Positions 638-31,557 of a DNA stretch of 64,000 nt are shown piece after piece. The notes under the pieces are model-generated. The model did no database searches. It was not told the origin of the DNA and saw nothing but the letters and a program-made list of their open reading frames with translations. Position 1 is the stretch's first letter. Each line of letters begins with the position of its first letter. The position numbers were made by a program, and so were the translations under genes. The DNA comes from Thermodesulfobacterium hydrogeniphilum. GTDB lineage: Bacteria > Desulfobacterota > Thermodesulfobacteria > Thermodesulfobacteriales > Thermodesulfobacteriaceae. The stretch is taken from NCBI RefSeq assembly GCF_000746255.1, contig NZ_JQKW01000009.1:1-64000 (forward strand), written 5' to 3'.

Positions 638-714
638 AGGCCAGTAGCTCAACTTGGCAGAGCGTCGGACTCCAAATCCGAAGGTTGGGGGTTCAAGTCC
701 CTCCTGGCCTGCCA
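638..714 (+). tRNA. trnW: tRNA-Trp (CCA anticodon)
   Basis: A full cloverleaf can be drawn. The acceptor arm AGGCCAG pairs with CTGGCCT, the anticodon stem TCGGA/TCCGA holds loop CTCCAAA with anticodon CCA, and the T-arm contains GGTTCAAGT-like sequence. The 3' CCA is encoded. In many bacteria secE and nusG follow this tRNA; here they do not. Confidence 0.95.
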
Positions 715-24345: not shown

Positions 24346-25602
24346 ATGGAAATGATTTTTAATATTAATTGGGAAAATTCGTCAAAAACTGTGGATCTTT
24401 TTTCACTCAGAAATTACCCTCTATTTTATGATTGGGTTGCAAGTCCTGATGGGGAAAAAATTGCTGTTGTAGTAGAAAATGAAAATAGAGAAACTACTGT
24501 TTGGGTTAATGGTAAAACCTGGGAAAATGTTTTTGAAAGAGTATGTTATTTGCAATTTACTCCTGATAATCGTTTAATTTGCACGGTTCAAAAAGATGGA
24601 TTATGGACAGTGGCTATTGATGGAAATTTATGGGAAAATAGTTTTGATTATGTATGGAATTTACAATTTAACCAAGATGGAAAAGTTATTGCAGTAAATG
24701 TAAAAGTTGGAAATCAATATAGTGTTTGTGTAAATGATAAACCATGGCAAAAATTTTTTTACGATGCAAGAGATCTCTTTATTTCTGATAAAGGAAACAA
24801 TATAGCAACTTATGTAAGGTTAGAAAATTATCCAGTGTTAGATATTTTAAATTTCGCAAAAGGGATGTGGAGTTTAGCGGTTAATGAAAGTGCTTGGGAT
24901 AAAAAGTTTATAAGTGTGTTTGGCTGTGCTTTTAGTCCTAATGGAGAAAAAGTTGCTGCTGGAGTAAGATTTTCAAATAGAGAATTTTCTATAGCTGTGG
25001 ATGGAAATATTTGGGAGAGTACCTTTTTACAAGTTTGGGAACCTGTATTTTTAAATAATGTAGATGTTTTAGCACCTGTAAAAACAGAAATAGGATGGCA
25101 GTTATATTGTAATGGAAGACCCTTTTGGGAGTATGGTTTTACCCAGATTTGGAATTTAAGAGTTCATCCTGCTAAGGAAAAAATAGCAGGTGTAATTGCT
25201 ACTGATCTTGGGAAATGGACAGTTATAGTAAATGGCACACCTTGGAAATATAGTTTTTCTGATTTAGTATTACCACCTATTTTCAGCCCTGATGGAGAAA
25301 AAGTTGCTGTTGCAGTAAAAGATAAAGGTAAATGGGGAATTGTAGTAGATGATGAACCATGGAGTTTGGATGTTGATAGAGTCTGGGATCCTATTTTCAG
25401 CCCTGACGGAGAAAAAGTTGCTGTTAGAGCTGAAAAGGGGAATAAATATTTTTTAGTTATAAATGATAAAATTCATAAAGAAAGTTTTGATTATTTGTGG
25501 GATCCTATTTTCAGCCCTGATGGAGAAAAAGTGCTTTTAAGAGGGATAAAAGGAAATACTTACTATAGAAAAGTTTTGAAAATAGAAAAAATTATAGGAT
25601 AA
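24346..25602 (+). CDS. tmcD: TmcD-like tryptophan-rich repeat protein
   Basis: A 418-residue soluble protein made of about ten 38-residue beta-propeller-like repeats with the pattern W-x-FSPDGEKVAV-x-W-x-VVDDxPW. Trp is unusually common. TmcD, the cytoplasmic Trp-rich subunit of the Tmc complex in sulfate reducers, is described this way, and the next genes encode the Tmc/Hmc membrane and Fe-S subunits. It has no signal peptide. ATG 24346 or the ATG two codons later could be used. The last repeats are nearly identical at the DNA level. Confidence 0.75.
   Translation: MEMIFNINWENSSKTVDLFSLRNYPLFYDWVASPDGEKIAVVVENENRETTVWVNGKTWENVFERVCYLQFTPDNRLICTVQKDGLWTVAIDGNLWENSFDYVWNLQFNQDGKVIAVNVKVGNQYSVCVNDKPWQKFFYDARDLFISDKGNNIATYVRLENYPVLDILNFAKGMWSLAVNESAWDKKFISVFGCAFSPNGEKVAAGVRFSNREFSIAVDGNIWESTFLQVWEPVFLNNVDVLAPVKTEIGWQLYCNGRPFWEYGFTQIWNLRVHPAKEKIAGVIATDLGKWTVIVNGTPWKYSFSDLVLPPIFSPDGEKVAVAVKDKGKWGIVVDDEPWSLDVDRVWDPIFSPDGEKVAVRAEKGNKYFLVINDKIHKESFDYLWDPIFSPDGEKVLLRGIKGNTYYRKVLKIEKIIG
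25276..25540 (+). repeat. Near-identical 114-bp units inside tmcD
   Basis: The block beginning CCTATTTTCAGCCCTGA recurs at 25276, 25390 and 25504, exactly 114 nt (38 codons) apart, with about 35 bases almost unchanged. A more diverged copy lies near 24930. Recent unit duplication within the propeller is the likely reason. Confidence 0.8.
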
Positions 25603-25607
25603 GTAAC

Positions 25608-26282
25608 ATGTTTTCCTTTGATTATGAAACTTTATATACTATAGTTAGAGGTCCCTTGGTTTGGGTATCTTTTATAGCTTTTTTAGGAGGAATAGTATAT
25701 AAAATTTTATATTTATCTTTAAAAGCTAAAAAAGATAAAATAATTTATACCTATCTTAACTTTAAATGCATTTTGAGATCTATAATACACTGGCTTTGTC
25801 CTTATGGAAGTTTGAGTATGAGAAGACATCCATGGTTTACTTTTGTTAGTTTTATTTTTCATATAGGGATTATTTTAACTCCTATTTTTTTCTTAGGACA
25901 CATAGAACTTTGGGAAGAATCTTGGGGTATTAGCTGGAAGGGATTTCCAAATTTTATATCAGATATTTTGACTATAACTACTATTACTTGCGGAATTCTA
26001 TTACTTATAAGAAGGTTATCTCTTAAACATGTTAGATTTTTAACCACTTCTAAAGACTATGCATTGCTTTTGCTTGTAATTGGAGTGTTTCTTACAGGAA
26101 TTTTAGCCCATTATCAGGTAGTTTTGGATTATAGATATATGGTTGTATTGCACATGTTATTAGGGGAGATAATGTTAATTGTTATACCTTTTACCAGGTT
26201 AGGGCACATGTTTCTTTTTTGGCTTACACGAGCTCACACTGCATCTGAATTTCAAGGCGTTAGACACTCTAAGGATTACTGA
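25608..26282 (+). CDS. tmcC: Cytochrome b-type membrane subunit (TmcC/HmcE, NarI/DsrM family)
   Basis: A 224-residue integral membrane protein with about five helices. It passes electrons between the quinone pool and the Fe-S partner. Candidate heme ligands are His in RRHPWFTFVSFIFHIG, GHIELW, LAHYQVVLDYRYMVVLHMLL and RLGHMFLF. N-terminal FVRGPLVW-like IVRGPLVWVSFIAFLGG is typical of TmcC/HmcE. It lies 5 nt after tmcD and 9 nt before the CCG subunit. TmcC and HmcE are close relatives and cannot be separated by eye; the tmcD neighbour favours Tmc and the following hmcA favours Hmc. Confidence 0.8.
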   Translation: MFSFDYETLYTIVRGPLVWVSFIAFLGGIVYKILYLSLKAKKDKIIYTYLNFKCILRSIIHWLCPYGSLSMRRHPWFTFVSFIFHIGIILTPIFFLGHIELWEESWGISWKGFPNFISDILTITTITCGILLLIRRLSLKHVRFLTTSKDYALLLLVIGVFLTGILAHYQVVLDYRYMVVLHMLLGEIMLIVIPFTRLGHMFLFWLTRAHTASEFQGVRHSKDY

Positions 26283-26291
26283 GGAGGGTTT

Positions 26292-27620
26292 ATGAAAGAA
26301 TTTAAAAGAGAGATAATAACAGATATAGGAATTGATAGAGTTTTAGATTTTTTAGATGAAAAGAGGATTAAAAGGGCTATAGATAGGGTATTAAGTAAGG
26401 AATCTGCTGCAAGATTAAAGGCTTTTGTGCAAACCTGTGTTCATTGTGGACTTTGTTCTGAAACATGTCATCATTATTTATCTCATGATGGTGATCCTAC
26501 CTATGCTCCTGCTGCAAAAGTTAAAATGACCATAGGAGATATTTTAGAAAAAGATGGAAATGTAACCAAAGAAGATATAAAAAGATATGCAAGGATTGCT
26601 TTTACTGAGTGTAATTTATGTCGCAGGTGCACAATGTTTTGTCCTTTTGGTATAGACATAGGTTATCTTATTTCTTTAGTAAGAAGAATTTGCGGAATTT
26701 TAGGTGTTGCTCCTCAATTTATTCAAGATCAGGTTTATAGTCATATGTCCTGTTATAATATGCTTTGGCTTAAACAAGATGAGTGGCTGGATACAATTCA
26801 GTGGATAGAAGATGAATTGAGATATGAAATTAAAAATGCAAGAATTCCTATTGGTAAAAAGGATTCAGATATTTTACTTTTAATACATGGACTCGAAGCT
26901 AAATATATGACTCCACTTTTGATGAATATGCTAAAAATAATGTTGGTCTCCGGAGTTGATTTTACTTTGCCAGATATAGATGGCTGGGATTATACTAACA
27001 AGTCTATTTACATGCATGACTTTGAGACCATGACTATGGTTACTAAAAGGCATTATGAAATTGCCACCAAACTAAGAGTTAAAAGAATTGTTATAACCGA
27101 ATGAGGCCATACCTATAGAGCCTCTGTTTATGAGGCTCCAAGATTGATGGGATGGAAAGATGCTCCAATTCCTTTTATTCATGCAGTAGAGTTTTTTTAT
27201 GAAATATTAAGCACAGGACGTATAAAAATAGCTCAAAAAATAAAAGAAGTAACAACTTTACAGGATCCTTGTAATGTTGTGAGATATAGAGGTTTAGGAA
27301 ATCAACTCAGGTATATAGTAAATCAGTTGTGTGAGAATTTTGTAGAAATGACACCGAATTATGAGTATAATTACTGTTGTAGTGCTGGAGGCGGAATGAT
27401 AGATGCAGGACCACCTTGGAAGTCCGCAAGAATAAAAGGTGGTAAGGTAAAGGCTGAACAAATAAAAGATACAGGAGCCACCTTAGTAATAGCTCCCTGT
27501 CATACCTGTCATAAAGGAATAGAAGATTTAATAGAAACTTATAATATAAATGCCCATGTAAAATTTTTAGCCGATGTAATCGCTGAATGCATGGAAATAC
27601 CCGAACATTTAAGGGTTTAA
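26292..27620 (+). CDS. hmcF: CCG-type Fe-S subunit (HmcF/TmcB), predicted selenoprotein
   Basis: Cytoplasmic Fe-S protein related to DsrK and HdrD. Two [4Fe-4S] sites are visible: C49-x2-C52-x2-C55-x3-C59 and C107-x2-C110-x2-C113-x3-C117. A CCG motif follows: C327, C362-C363, C403-x2-C406. At codon 271 the frame has TGA (27102-27104); both sides are in the same frame and continue the same family. The local sequence VITE-stop-GHTYRAS matches the conserved ECGH motif with the Cys replaced, so selenocysteine is predicted. A hairpin follows at 27118-27138. Full product is 442 residues, normal for the family. A good GGAGGG precedes the ATG. Confidence 0.85.
27118..27138 (+). promoter_or_regulatory. 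Predicted bacterial SECIS hairpin
   Basis: GAGCCTC (27118-27124), loop TGTTTAT, GAGGCTC (27132-27138): a perfect 7-bp stem. The loop begins 20 nt after the TGA, within the range for bacterial SECIS elements. A G lies in the second loop position, as the general bacterial model requires. It is inside the coding region, as expected. Confidence 0.75.
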
Positions 27621-27621
27621 T

Positions 27622-29286
27622 ATGCAAAGAAAAAGAGTTTTTATTTTAGAAATTATTTTAGTTGTAATAGGAATTTCAATCATTTTTTATTACAGCAAAG
27701 GTCTATCCTTGGTAGAAAAAAAGAATCAAATAAGCTCCCAATCAGAAGAGGTAAAAAACAATGAGATTTTAATAGCTCATAAAGAATATTTTAAAAAATT
27801 GGAATATGCTCCGGTTTTGTTTAGCCATCAAAAACATGTTAAAGCTTTAAAAGAAAAAGGATGCAAAGCCTGTCATTATATAAATAAAAAAGGACTTTAT
27901 GTTTTTACTTTTGTTAAAGGTATTTATAAGAAAAAGTCAGAAGAGATTAAAAAAGAATATCACCAAAAATGCATAAAATGTCATGTGAAGTTTAGAAAAA
28001 AAGGGAAAAAGTCAGGTCCAATTAAACTTTCTTGTGGAGAATGTCATAAAAGGGAGTATGTTAATAAAGAGATTAAATATCCTGCATTTGATTTTGATTT
28101 TGCTTATCATGATAAACATGTAAAAAAACTCAAAGATAGAACTAAAAATAGATCTTCAAAAGAAACCTGTAAATTATGTCATCATACTTATGATTTAAAA
28201 ACTAAGAAATTGGTATATCAAAATGGAACAGAGGAATCCTGTTATTATTGTCATGATTTAAGTAAAAAAAGAGGTCCTGACTTAAGCAAAATTGTAGCTA
28301 TTTCAAAGAAAGAAAATTGGAATTTACCTAATGCATTTCATTCTCTATGTTTGAGCTGCCATTTTAAATTAAAAAAAGAAAACAAAAAAGCAGGTCCTAT
28401 AGTTTGTTCTAAGTGCCATACAGGTAAATATAAAACTATAGCAGAGTTAAAGAAAGTTCCTTGTCCAGAAAGAGGTCAAAAAGATAAATATTTCTTATTT
28501 GTAAAAAATCTTTCCAAGATGAAAGGAGTTCCTTTTGATCATAAATTTCATGAGAATGAGGTAGCAAAGTGTAGAACCTGTCATCATGAAAGGTTAAAAG
28601 CATGTAAAGATTGTCATACAATAGGAGGTAGTTCAAAAGGTGATTATATAAATCTTGTTACTGCTTACCATTCTCTATTTTCTGATAGAAGTTGTAGAGG
28701 GTGTCATTATAGACAAATTAAAAGCAATAAAAACTGTTTAAGCTGTCATTACTTTTTCAATTTAGCTGAAGCAAGATCAGAATTGGCTGATGAAAGATCT
28801 TGTAAAATTTGTCATACAGGGAAAAAAGAATTATTACCCACTAAGAAATTATCCTTAGAGGGTTTGAATTTGAAGAAGATTAAAAAGGAGATCACAATAA
28901 AGAAACTTTCTAAAGAATTTGAGCCAGCAAAAATGCCACATTTAAAAATGATTAATAAATTGGTTGAGGTTTCTAATAATAGTAAACTGGCTACTTATTT
29001 TCATAGAAATCTGGAAACAATTTGCAGAGGTTGTCATCACAAGAGTAATGTAAAAGCTGAATTAGAAAAAAATAAATTACCTCTTTGTAGCAATTGTCAT
29101 AGTGTTGATTTTGATCCTCTTCATCCTGAAAGACCAAGACTACAAGCTGCTTATCATAATCAATGTATAAAATGCCATGAAAATATGCAGATAAAAAAAG
29201 CTATTAATTGCACAGATTGTCATAAATATAAAAAAGGAAATAAATTGAAAAAATTATTTTTAAAAAGGGAAGAAAAAAATGTATAG
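27622..29286 (+). CDS. hmcA: 16-heme high-molecular-weight cytochrome c HmcA
   Basis: Periplasmic electron-transfer cytochrome that takes electrons from periplasmic cytochrome c3/hydrogenases to the membrane complex. The 554 residues hold exactly 16 CxxCH motifs, the number known for HmcA, with many extra His for bis-His ligation (such as CHH and YHSLC). An N-terminal hydrophobic segment (about 7-25) exports it and may stay as an anchor. It is Lys-rich and starts one nt after the hmcF stop. The gene order here differs from Desulfovibrio, where hmcA comes first. Confidence 0.93.
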   Translation: MQRKRVFILEIILVVIGISIIFYYSKGLSLVEKKNQISSQSEEVKNNEILIAHKEYFKKLEYAPVLFSHQKHVKALKEKGCKACHYINKKGLYVFTFVKGIYKKKSEEIKKEYHQKCIKCHVKFRKKGKKSGPIKLSCGECHKREYVNKEIKYPAFDFDFAYHDKHVKKLKDRTKNRSSKETCKLCHHTYDLKTKKLVYQNGTEESCYYCHDLSKKRGPDLSKIVAISKKENWNLPNAFHSLCLSCHFKLKKENKKAGPIVCSKCHTGKYKTIAELKKVPCPERGQKDKYFLFVKNLSKMKGVPFDHKFHENEVAKCRTCHHERLKACKDCHTIGGSSKGDYINLVTAYHSLFSDRSCRGCHYRQIKSNKNCLSCHYFFNLAEARSELADERSCKICHTGKKELLPTKKLSLEGLNLKKIKKEITIKKLSKEFEPAKMPHLKMINKLVEVSNNSKLATYFHRNLETICRGCHHKSNVKAELEKNKLPLCSNCHSVDFDPLHPERPRLQAAYHNQCIKCHENMQIKKAINCTDCHKYKKGNKLKKLFLKREEKNV

Positions 29287-29395
29287 TTTTGAAGAGTTAT
29301 TTACAAATCACGGTTTTGAATATGCATTAGCAGGATTAGCGTTTTTTATTTTTATAATAGTTATATTCACATTGCAGGAAAAAAAGAAATACTAA
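29279..29395 (+). CDS. hmcD: Small membrane subunit HmcD
   Basis: A 38-residue protein beginning MYSFEELFTNHGFEYALAG, with one transmembrane helix (LAFFIFIIVIFTL) and a Lys-rich tail. The ATG overlaps the hmcA stop region by 8 nt, so translation is coupled. Size, single helix and place between cytochrome and Fe-S subunits match HmcD. It is easily missed by gene finders. Confidence 0.75.
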   Translation: MYSFEELFTNHGFEYALAGLAFFIFIIVIFTLQEKKKY

Positions 29396-29408
29396 TTTTG
29401 AGGAAATT

Positions 29409-30386
29409 ATGAACAGGAGAGAGTTTTTAAATAAAATTTTAAAAGTTACAGGGTTAACTGTTTATCACCCTTATGTAGCTAAAGAGGAATCTGTTCCTTT
29501 TCGTTCTACAGGTAATTCTGTTAATAGGAAAGTTTGGGAGATATATAAAAAGAGAAAAGAAACCGTTTCCCAAAAATTAGAAGATACTTATGCAATTTTA
29601 GTAGATTTAAATAAATGTATAGGTTGTAGAAGATGTGAATGGGCTTGTAATGAATGGAACAAAAATCCCAATAAACCTATAAAAGAATTTGAAAAATCCC
29701 GTTTTGAGAAAAATTCTGTATTCAATGAAATTAGAAGAACTACCGCAGGTCAGTTCACAGTAGTAAATAGATTTTTTGATGAAAAAACAGGAAAACCTGT
29801 ATATGTAAAGATACAATGTATGCATTGTCTTGATCCTGCTTGTGTTTCTGCTTGTTTTGTTGGAGCTTTTACTAAAACACCTGAGGGAGCAGTGATATAT
29901 AATCCTGATGCATGTGTAGGGTGTCGTTATTGTTTAATTGCTTGTCCTTTTGATATTCCAGCTTATGAATATTTTGATCCCTTTACTCCTCAAGTTACAA
30001 AATGTACCATGTGTTTTGATAGAATTGTAGAAGGGGAGGTTCCTGCGTGTGTAGCTATATGTTCAGCAGATGCCTTAAAATTTGGTAAAAGAAAAGAATT
30101 GTTAGAATTAGCTCATAAAATAATAGAAGATAATCCAGATAAATATGTTCCTTATGTTTATGGAGAACATGATTTTGGTGGAACAAACTGGCTTTATATC
30201 TCTCCTGTTCCTTTTGAAAAGCTGGGATTTCCTATGGGTTATAATGAAACCCCTGCTAAATTTACCAGAAACTTTCTTTTCGCTGTGAAGGTTTTAGAAA
30301 TATTAGCTGCTCCACCTTTAGTATATTTAGCATATAAATCTCTTTCAGATAAATCTAAAACCGGTGGAAAAAATGAAGACAAATAG
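29409..30386 (+). CDS. hmcB: Periplasmic ferredoxin-like subunit HmcB
   Basis: A 325-residue protein that passes electrons between the cytochrome and the NrfD-type subunit. It begins MNRREFLNK, a twin-arginine-like signal. Four [4Fe-4S] sites are visible: CIGCRRCEWAC (from C70), CMHCLDPACVSAC, CVGCRYCLIACP and CTMCFDRIVEGEVPACVAIC. A C-terminal hydrophobic helix (about 293-308) anchors it. It starts 13 nt after hmcD and overlaps hmcC. Confidence 0.93.
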   Translation: MNRREFLNKILKVTGLTVYHPYVAKEESVPFRSTGNSVNRKVWEIYKKRKETVSQKLEDTYAILVDLNKCIGCRRCEWACNEWNKNPNKPIKEFEKSRFEKNSVFNEIRRTTAGQFTVVNRFFDEKTGKPVYVKIQCMHCLDPACVSACFVGAFTKTPEGAVIYNPDACVGCRYCLIACPFDIPAYEYFDPFTPQVTKCTMCFDRIVEGEVPACVAICSADALKFGKRKELLELAHKIIEDNPDKYVPYVYGEHDFGGTNWLYISPVPFEKLGFPMGYNETPAKFTRNFLFAVKVLEILAAPPLVYLAYKSLSDKSKTGGKNEDK

Positions 30387-31557
30387 CTGGTTTAGAGAAA
30401 AGATTTTACTTGGCCAAGATTTTAAAGATTATATAGCTGGGTTATTAACTCCTTGGAATTTAATTGTAGGAATTATTTTGATTTTGGGCATATATGCTCT
30501 GGGATATCGTATTCTTTTTGGATTTGGCCCTGCTACTAATCTTACAAATGAATATCCTTGGGGATTATGGAAAACTTTAAACATTTTAGCTGAGATTCCT
30601 CTTTCTGCCCCCGGCTTAGCTATAGGGACAGCAGTGTATTTATTTAAGGTAAAAGACTATAAAATGTTTGCTCGTCCTGCTGTACTTGCCAGTCTTTTAG
30701 GATATGTATTTGGTGTATTAACTTTGATTTTTGATTTAGGAAGATATGATAGAGTGTTATATCCTTTTGTTTTGTTCTGGGGATTAGAATCTGTTTTGTT
30801 TTTAACAGCTTGGCATTTCTTTTTATATATTCTTATATGCTTCGTAGAATGGTTTCCTGCGTTTTTTGAATGGGTTGGAGCTGAAAGAGCCAGAAACTTG
30901 TTTGCTAAATTAGGTGTCTGGGCTACAGCTCTGGGAGTGATAATAACAGGTGGACATCAGGCAGCTCTTGGAGCCTTATTTTTAATAATACCTACAAAAC
31001 TTCATCCCCTCTGGTATTCATCTTTGTTGCCTGTTTTCTTTTTAGTTTCTGCTGTATTTGCTGGTATTGCAGTATTTATTGTTCAAGCTACTATCACTTA
31101 TAAAGTCTATAGAAATCAATTGGTAAATTTTAATTATAAAGAATTTCATAGAAGACTTTTGAGTTTATCAAAAATTTTAGTTGTAGTTTTGGTAGCTTAT
31201 TTACTTTTGAAATTGCTTGATTTAGCTCATTATAATAAATGGAAATATTTGTTTACCCCTTATGGTTATTGGTATTTGGTAGAATTAATAGGATTTGTGG
31301 TAATACCGATAATTACACTTATAATAGGTATTAAGGCTAAATGGGTTAAATGGGTTCAATTGAGCGCTTTTTGGGTGATTTTAGGGCTTATTTTAAATAG
31401 ATTTAATGTGGGATTAATAGCATACAGATGGTATATACCTCTTTCTCAAAAATACTGGCCTACATGGATGGAAGTTGCTTTTTCATTATCTATGATCACT
31501 TGGGCAATTGTAGTTTACAAATTTATAATAAAAAGGATGCCTATTTTAAAACACTAA
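30373..31557 (+). CDS. hmcC: NrfD-family membrane subunit HmcC
   Basis: Integral membrane quinone-interacting subunit, 394 residues with about ten helices, of the NrfD/PsrC family. NEYPWGLWKTLNILAEIPLS resembles the conserved first loop. GGHQAALGALFLI and HPLWYSSLLPVFFLVSA are typical of Hmc/Dsr/Qrc-type NrfD proteins. A GTG three codons upstream is possible, but ATG 30373 has GGTGG before it. It overlaps hmcB by 14 nt. The deacetylase-like gene follows after one nt. Confidence 0.92.
   Translation: MKTNSWFREKILLGQDFKDYIAGLLTPWNLIVGIILILGIYALGYRILFGFGPATNLTNEYPWGLWKTLNILAEIPLSAPGLAIGTAVYLFKVKDYKMFARPAVLASLLGYVFGVLTLIFDLGRYDRVLYPFVLFWGLESVLFLTAWHFFLYILICFVEWFPAFFEWVGAERARNLFAKLGVWATALGVIITGGHQAALGALFLIIPTKLHPLWYSSLLPVFFLVSAVFAGIAVFIVQATITYKVYRNQLVNFNYKEFHRRLLSLSKILVVVLVAYLLLKLLDLAHYNKWKYLFTPYGYWYLVELIGFVVIPIITLIIGIKAKWVKWVQLSAFWVILGLILNRFNVGLIAYRWYIPLSQKYWPTWMEVAFSLSMITWAIVVYKFIIKRMPILKH

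Follow-up and report, generated by a model that had tools for sequence, protein, structure and literature searches.

The present analysis concerns a gene at positions 26292-27620 (+) of a 64,000-nucleotide stretch of DNA from the thermophilic sulfate reducer Thermodesulfobacterium hydrogeniphilum (contig NZ_JQKW01000009.1, positions 1 to 64,000; hereafter the window). Judged from its sequence, this is very probably a genuine selenoprotein gene, encoding the TmcB/HmcF-like CCG iron-sulfur subunit of a Tmc/Hmc-type complex. The reading frame runs from an ATG at 26292 to a TAA at 27618-27620, and its sole in-frame stop is a TGA at 27102-27104 (codon 271), in the context VITE-U-GHTYRAS, where U denotes selenocysteine (Sec). 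Beyond the TGA the same frame continues without a shift through C327, CC362-363 and CHTCH. No other TGA in the window has 50 or more open codons to either side of it without forming a gene boundary or lying under another gene. We read the TGA as Sec because of a column of relatives that holds Cys or TGA, the Sec machinery of the genome and a covarying hairpin in the Sec-type genes.

At the column of codon 271, Cys or TGA is found in 73/73 aligned relatives. E270 and residue 271 (as Cys or TGA) are invariant across these sequences, and C327, C362, C363, C403 and C406 are invariant or nearly so. Within the tree set, 15 other homologous genes have TGA at the aligned codon; one belongs to a second operon of the same genome, 3 to congeners and 11 are Desulfobacterota/Deltaproteobacteria genes. 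The second operon is complete, with an identical TmcD-TmcC-TmcB-HmcA-HmcB-HmcC gene order (L105:7802-9232; G000 contig C1:12900-14216), and its tmcB combines the TGA at the homologous codon with a GUU-loop hairpin. The same genome also holds a Cys-type paralogue (C1:21672) and a DsrK gene without the stop (C13:21896). With two Sec-type operons beside one paralogue that has Cys, this genome offers a natural comparison.

The genome (1.69 Mb, 13 contigs) encodes SelB (393 bits), SelA (609 bits) and SelD (348 bits), each above its cut-off, together with a tRNA-Sec of 80.9 bits with the anticodon TCA (UCA). The SelD gene has a single TGA of its own; a 10-bp stem capped by a GUU loop, like the hairpins of the tmcB genes, follows it (L018, C5:252794). 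Besides, two molybdopterin-family (FdhA-like) genes carry a TGA in a formate-dehydrogenase-like context (L145, C12:80834; L147, C10:73163). These three are likely to be further selenoprotein genes of this genome. SelB was detected in all five Sec-bearing genomes of our survey of the phylum (G000, G002, G056, G119 and G347), and the Cys-type genomes listed without it are G016, G020, G043, G049 and G168. Since 356/395 genomes of the phylum are positive for SelB, its presence is uninformative as a general test of co-occurrence.

Just downstream of the TGA, the transcript can form a hairpin of GAGCCUC (27118-27124) and GAGGCUC (27132-27138) around the loop UGUUUAU (27125-27131). The stem starts 13 nt and the loop 20 nt after the TGA, and the second loop base is G. 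Folding of 27102-27145 gave -14.2 kcal/mol (z = -2.65), a value reached in 2/200 shuffles. We then scored homologues by a stem of at least 7 bp, a G within the first two loop bases and the correct distance from the codon; 13/16 distinct Sec sequences and 7/86 Cys sequences have such a hairpin (Fisher p 3.7e-9). In the GUU-centred hairpins of 11 distinct Sec homologues, 9-11/11 were paired at each of eight inner positions, most of which also show compensatory changes. These pair counts were scripted in a fixed register, as a MAFFT alignment of the 27-mer hairpins lost register. No such hairpin is present in the window gene's Cys sisters (about -6 versus -12.8 kcal/mol). A Cys-type HmcF gene from G016, where SelB was not found, retains a GUU-loop hairpin remnant (L127:385-1647), likely a fossil selenocysteine insertion sequence (SECIS) left by a Sec-to-Cys replacement. 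An Rfam scan of the window site returned no SECIS family and two chance-level matches only, and we assessed the hairpin through comparative folding instead.

The selenoprotein proposal of the initial annotation is therefore strongly supported by the column, the machinery and the recurrent hairpin. Its account of the uninterrupted frame was found exactly so, and its description of the hairpin (7 bp, 27118-27138, the 13- and 20-nt spacing, G second in the loop) is exact on every point. It had also suggested looking for selA, selB, selD and tRNA-Sec, all four of which are present, and aligning relatives for E-C-G-H at the site; Cys lies exactly there, and the ECGH site is invariant in TmcB, HmcF and DsrK. 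In such a scheme, SelB and tRNA-Sec would decode the UGA at codon 271 under the direction of the hairpin, yielding a 442-residue subunit predicted to contain paired CCG domains like those of HdrB/EtfD, together with two [4Fe-4S] sites of the ferredoxin type.

Several observations weigh against decoding as Sec. The four orthologues closest to it, all from the same genus and 78-79% identical, carry Cys as TGC or TGT; hence the complex can do without Sec. Orthologues in the genus are near-identical to the proteins of T. hveragerdense and T. thermophilum, which are the named relatives of highest protein similarity. At the window site alone, 3% of shuffles meet the hairpin criterion, so that the lone hairpin is weak evidence and its recurrence in relatives is the strong part. 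Three of the 16 Sec genes have weaker stems by the same criterion, and the Fisher p is overstated because Sec and Cys sequences share descent and the counts are not independent. The codons of the nearest orthologues, and the 3% of shuffles that yield such a hairpin, would also suit a pseudogene with a true stop, or a TGC or TGT miscalled as TGA. We consider this very unlikely: many other genomes have TGA at the same codon, the hairpin is kept in Sec genes and lost in Cys sisters, and the Sec machinery is complete. Furthermore, the proportion of nonsynonymous differences (pN) from the T. hveragerdense orthologue is 0.132 upstream of the TGA and 0.128 downstream of it (amino-acid identity 78% and 79%), and equal constraint on both sides argues against a pseudogene; synonymous sites were saturated in this comparison, and thus no selection ratio is given. 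Decoding of the UGA as another residue, through general readthrough or reassignment to Trp, is the least probable alternative and practically negligible. Nothing was found in its favour. The genome has a normal tRNA-Trp with a CCA anticodon (window 638-714), and the 64 kb of the window contain no other gene-internal TGA; moreover, the position of codon 271 is otherwise always Cys.

How Sec came to this gene was considered on a tree of 96 rows, for which the trait residue was masked. On it, 6 changes are required for the Sec label, and starred branches force 5 of them. In the TmcB half, Sec stands at two separate places, one being the window lineage and the other the clade of the second operon; in the HmcF half, Sec and Cys rows are intermixed. 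As the tree has no root, these changes are not separable into gains and losses. An ancestral Sec in the window lineage, lost in the Cys sisters rather than recently gained here, would agree with the presence of Sec in the genus's paralogous clade. However, the window gene stands as a lone Sec tip next to four Cys rows, its hairpin is unlike the one in the paralogous Sec genes and the Cys sisters show no trace of a hairpin, which makes an ancestral Sec rather doubtful.

The operon around the gene (24346-31557, +) is a Tmc/Hmc mixture by NCBIfam scores (Table 1). The window protein scores 593.2 bits with TmcB (NF045724), 351.8 with HmcF (NF045711) and 177 with DsrK, below the curated cut-offs of 735, 750 and 400 bits, respectively; its Pfam CCG match is 37.8 bits. 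Since these scores fall under the equivalog thresholds, we call it TmcB/HmcF-like and do not file it as TmcB. The TmcC-, TmcD- and HmcA-like neighbours exceed their own cut-offs, and the HmcB- and HmcC-like ones score under theirs. The Hmc/Tmc label of the initial annotation is correct, but the operon is mixed and the subunit lies under both the TmcB and the HmcF cut-offs. The window protein resembles TmcB, HmcF and DsrK (NF045724, NF045711 and NF045796) in architecture, the invariant ECGH site and operon neighbours, and differs from them in having Sec for Cys, sub-cut-off scores and a mixed operon.

The likely place of residue 271 differs from what had been proposed. The AlphaFold2 model of the window protein (pLDDT 94.8, pTM 0.92) matches mycobacterial EtfD (PDB 9ojn) over 388 residues (VIA Z 27.1) and HdrB (PDB 5odc) with a Z of about 19-20, sharing their fold and, by alignment, their noncubane ligand set. 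In EtfD, the noncubane cluster D2 is ligated by five Cys and His583, and Cys581 is a ligand of the linear [3Fe-4S] cluster D1, which lies about 8 A away (PMC13083937). By HMMER alignments, C327, C362, C363, C403, C406 and H273 correspond to the D2 ligands C637, 672, 673, 709, 712 and H583 of EtfD, and Sec271 to Cys581. Homology therefore indicates that one noncubane [4Fe-4S] cluster would be held by these five Cys and H273. The initial annotation had Sec replacing a Cys ligand of that cluster; the comparison does not support this, as the counterpart of Sec271 belongs to D1 and the noncubane ligands are other residues. The second cluster site of EtfD and HdrB is lost in the window protein save for residue 271: among EtfD C503, 538, 581 and 584, only the equivalent of C581 is kept. 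On balance, Sec271, two residues before H273, is probably the last survivor of this lost site and may face an emptied pocket.

Direct ligation of the noncubane cluster by Sec271 as an extra ligand would accord with a residue as invariant as the cluster ligands and only two positions from the predicted His ligand. We regard it as unlikely, as the homologous Cys581 serves D1, some 8 A distant, and the EtfD noncubane cluster is already fully ligated. A weakness of the pocket role is its dependence on an EtfD alignment with about 16% identity. Since Cys/Sec271 is invariant in proteins that lack D1, it should have a function of its own. The selenolate of Sec271 (a thiolate in Cys-type relatives) could carry out thiol/disulfide or electron-relay chemistry beside the cluster, with a DsrC-like cytoplasmic protein as candidate partner. 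TmcB has been predicted to interact with DsrC (PMC10553843), but this partnership is a literature proposal, which likewise tempers the pocket role. The complex as a whole would link a periplasmic multihaem cytochrome and membrane subunits to a cytoplasmic redox reaction, and the invariant residue 271 of TmcB/HmcF/DsrK may serve as a handle on the cytoplasmic-side role of these subunits. More tentatively, in all TmcB/HmcF/DsrK proteins the second HdrB/EtfD cluster might have been replaced by a single redox-active Cys/Sec beside the noncubane cluster. Cluster and thiol (or selenol) would then make up one mixed centre for the reduction of a disulfide or trisulfide in a protein such as DsrC; Sec might have entered this site repeatedly, with reversal to Cys, e.g., in genomes without SelB.

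Sec in GlpC-type Fe-S oxidoreductases, to which the initial annotation referred, has indeed been described in the literature, and the UGH motif is the same there. The Fe-S oxidoreductase/GlpC selenoprotein family (COG0247/PTHR43551) of Zhang and Gladyshev appears in the tables of PMC13188914, PMC9312934 and PMC1794560. "Fe-S oxidoreductase-like protein, PTHR43551, UGH" is listed as a predicted selenoprotein family (PMC13188914), and GlpC selenoproteins have been counted in Syntrophobacter, Desulfotalea and Desulfovibrio (PMC1794560). The prediction of this family dates back to about 2005. For this reason our finding is less new than it seemed at first. The window gene shares with this family the UGH motif in a CCG-type iron-sulfur protein, a bacterial SECIS and occurrence in Deltaproteobacteria, but belongs to an operon for a membrane complex of the Tmc/Hmc type. 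These papers leave the family undivided, and overlap is possible. According to the available part of PMC2702500, Desulfobacterium autotrophicum has Sec-containing HdrD4/HdrF, likewise HdrD-type CCG proteins of a sulfate reducer with Sec, and that part does not describe its two TmcBCA clusters as selenoproteins. A search of open-licence literature gave no paper naming a Tmc/Hmc subunit (TmcB or HmcF) or DsrK as a selenoprotein, which is a weak negative. The window gene would thus add a member to the UGH-type selenoprotein family, and the probable position of its residue 271 is revised here. In several lineages this would make a selenoenzyme of a respiratory complex that is conserved in sulfate reducers, and gene finders that stop at the TGA would therefore truncate its CCG subunit.

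Table 1. Features of the tmcB/hmcF-like selenoprotein gene and its operon in the window.
Feature	Position	Strand	Basis
tmcD-like gene, first of the operon	24346..25602	+	NCBIfam NF045725 TmcD 453 bits, cut-off 440
tmcC/hmcE-like membrane anchor gene, cytochrome b type	25608..26282	+	NF045723 TmcC 264 bits, cut-off 240; Pfam Nitrate_red_gam
tmcB/hmcF-like CCG iron-sulfur subunit, 442 aa, predicted selenoprotein gene	26292..27620	+	NF045724 and NF045711 scores; AlphaFold2; Z to EtfD
TGA codon, predicted to be read as selenocysteine 271, EUGH motif	27102..27104	+	Cys/TGA column in 73/73 relatives; 15 other Sec homologues
CAT, His273, counterpart of EtfD His583 (noncubane-cluster ligand)	27108..27110	+	HMMER alignments; ligands per PMC13083937
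Predicted bacterial SECIS hairpin, 7 bp, loop UGUUUAU	27118..27138	+	Folding; covariation of the homologous hairpin in relatives
C-terminal CCG motif C327, C362, C363, C403, C406, predicted noncubane [4Fe-4S] ligands	27270..27509	+	Alignment to EtfD C637, 672, 673, 709, 712
hmcA-like multihaem cytochrome c gene	27622..29286	+	NF045713 549 bits, cut-off 400
hmcB-like ferredoxin subunit gene	29409..30386	+	NF045715 325 bits, cut-off 420
hmcC/NrfD-like integral membrane subunit gene	30364..31557	+	NF045714 353 bits, cut-off 550; Pfam NrfD

Most internal stops flagged by the phylum search were natural gene ends or lay at positions other than codon 271. A divergent CCG protein gene with EUGH and a TGA (L028:3380-4627, -) adjoins hdrA, an arrangement published for GlpC (glpC-hdrA), and a Sec-HmcF gene is found on the same contig. 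A Cys-type relative (L112:384-1715, -; G098:C192) has a TGA at a ferredoxin-type Cys (CAHUAIC) without a good hairpin, which could be an error, a mutation or another Sec site. One TmcB gene (L117; G296:C6:166836-168134) contains an in-frame TAG where a sister genome has CAG (Gln).
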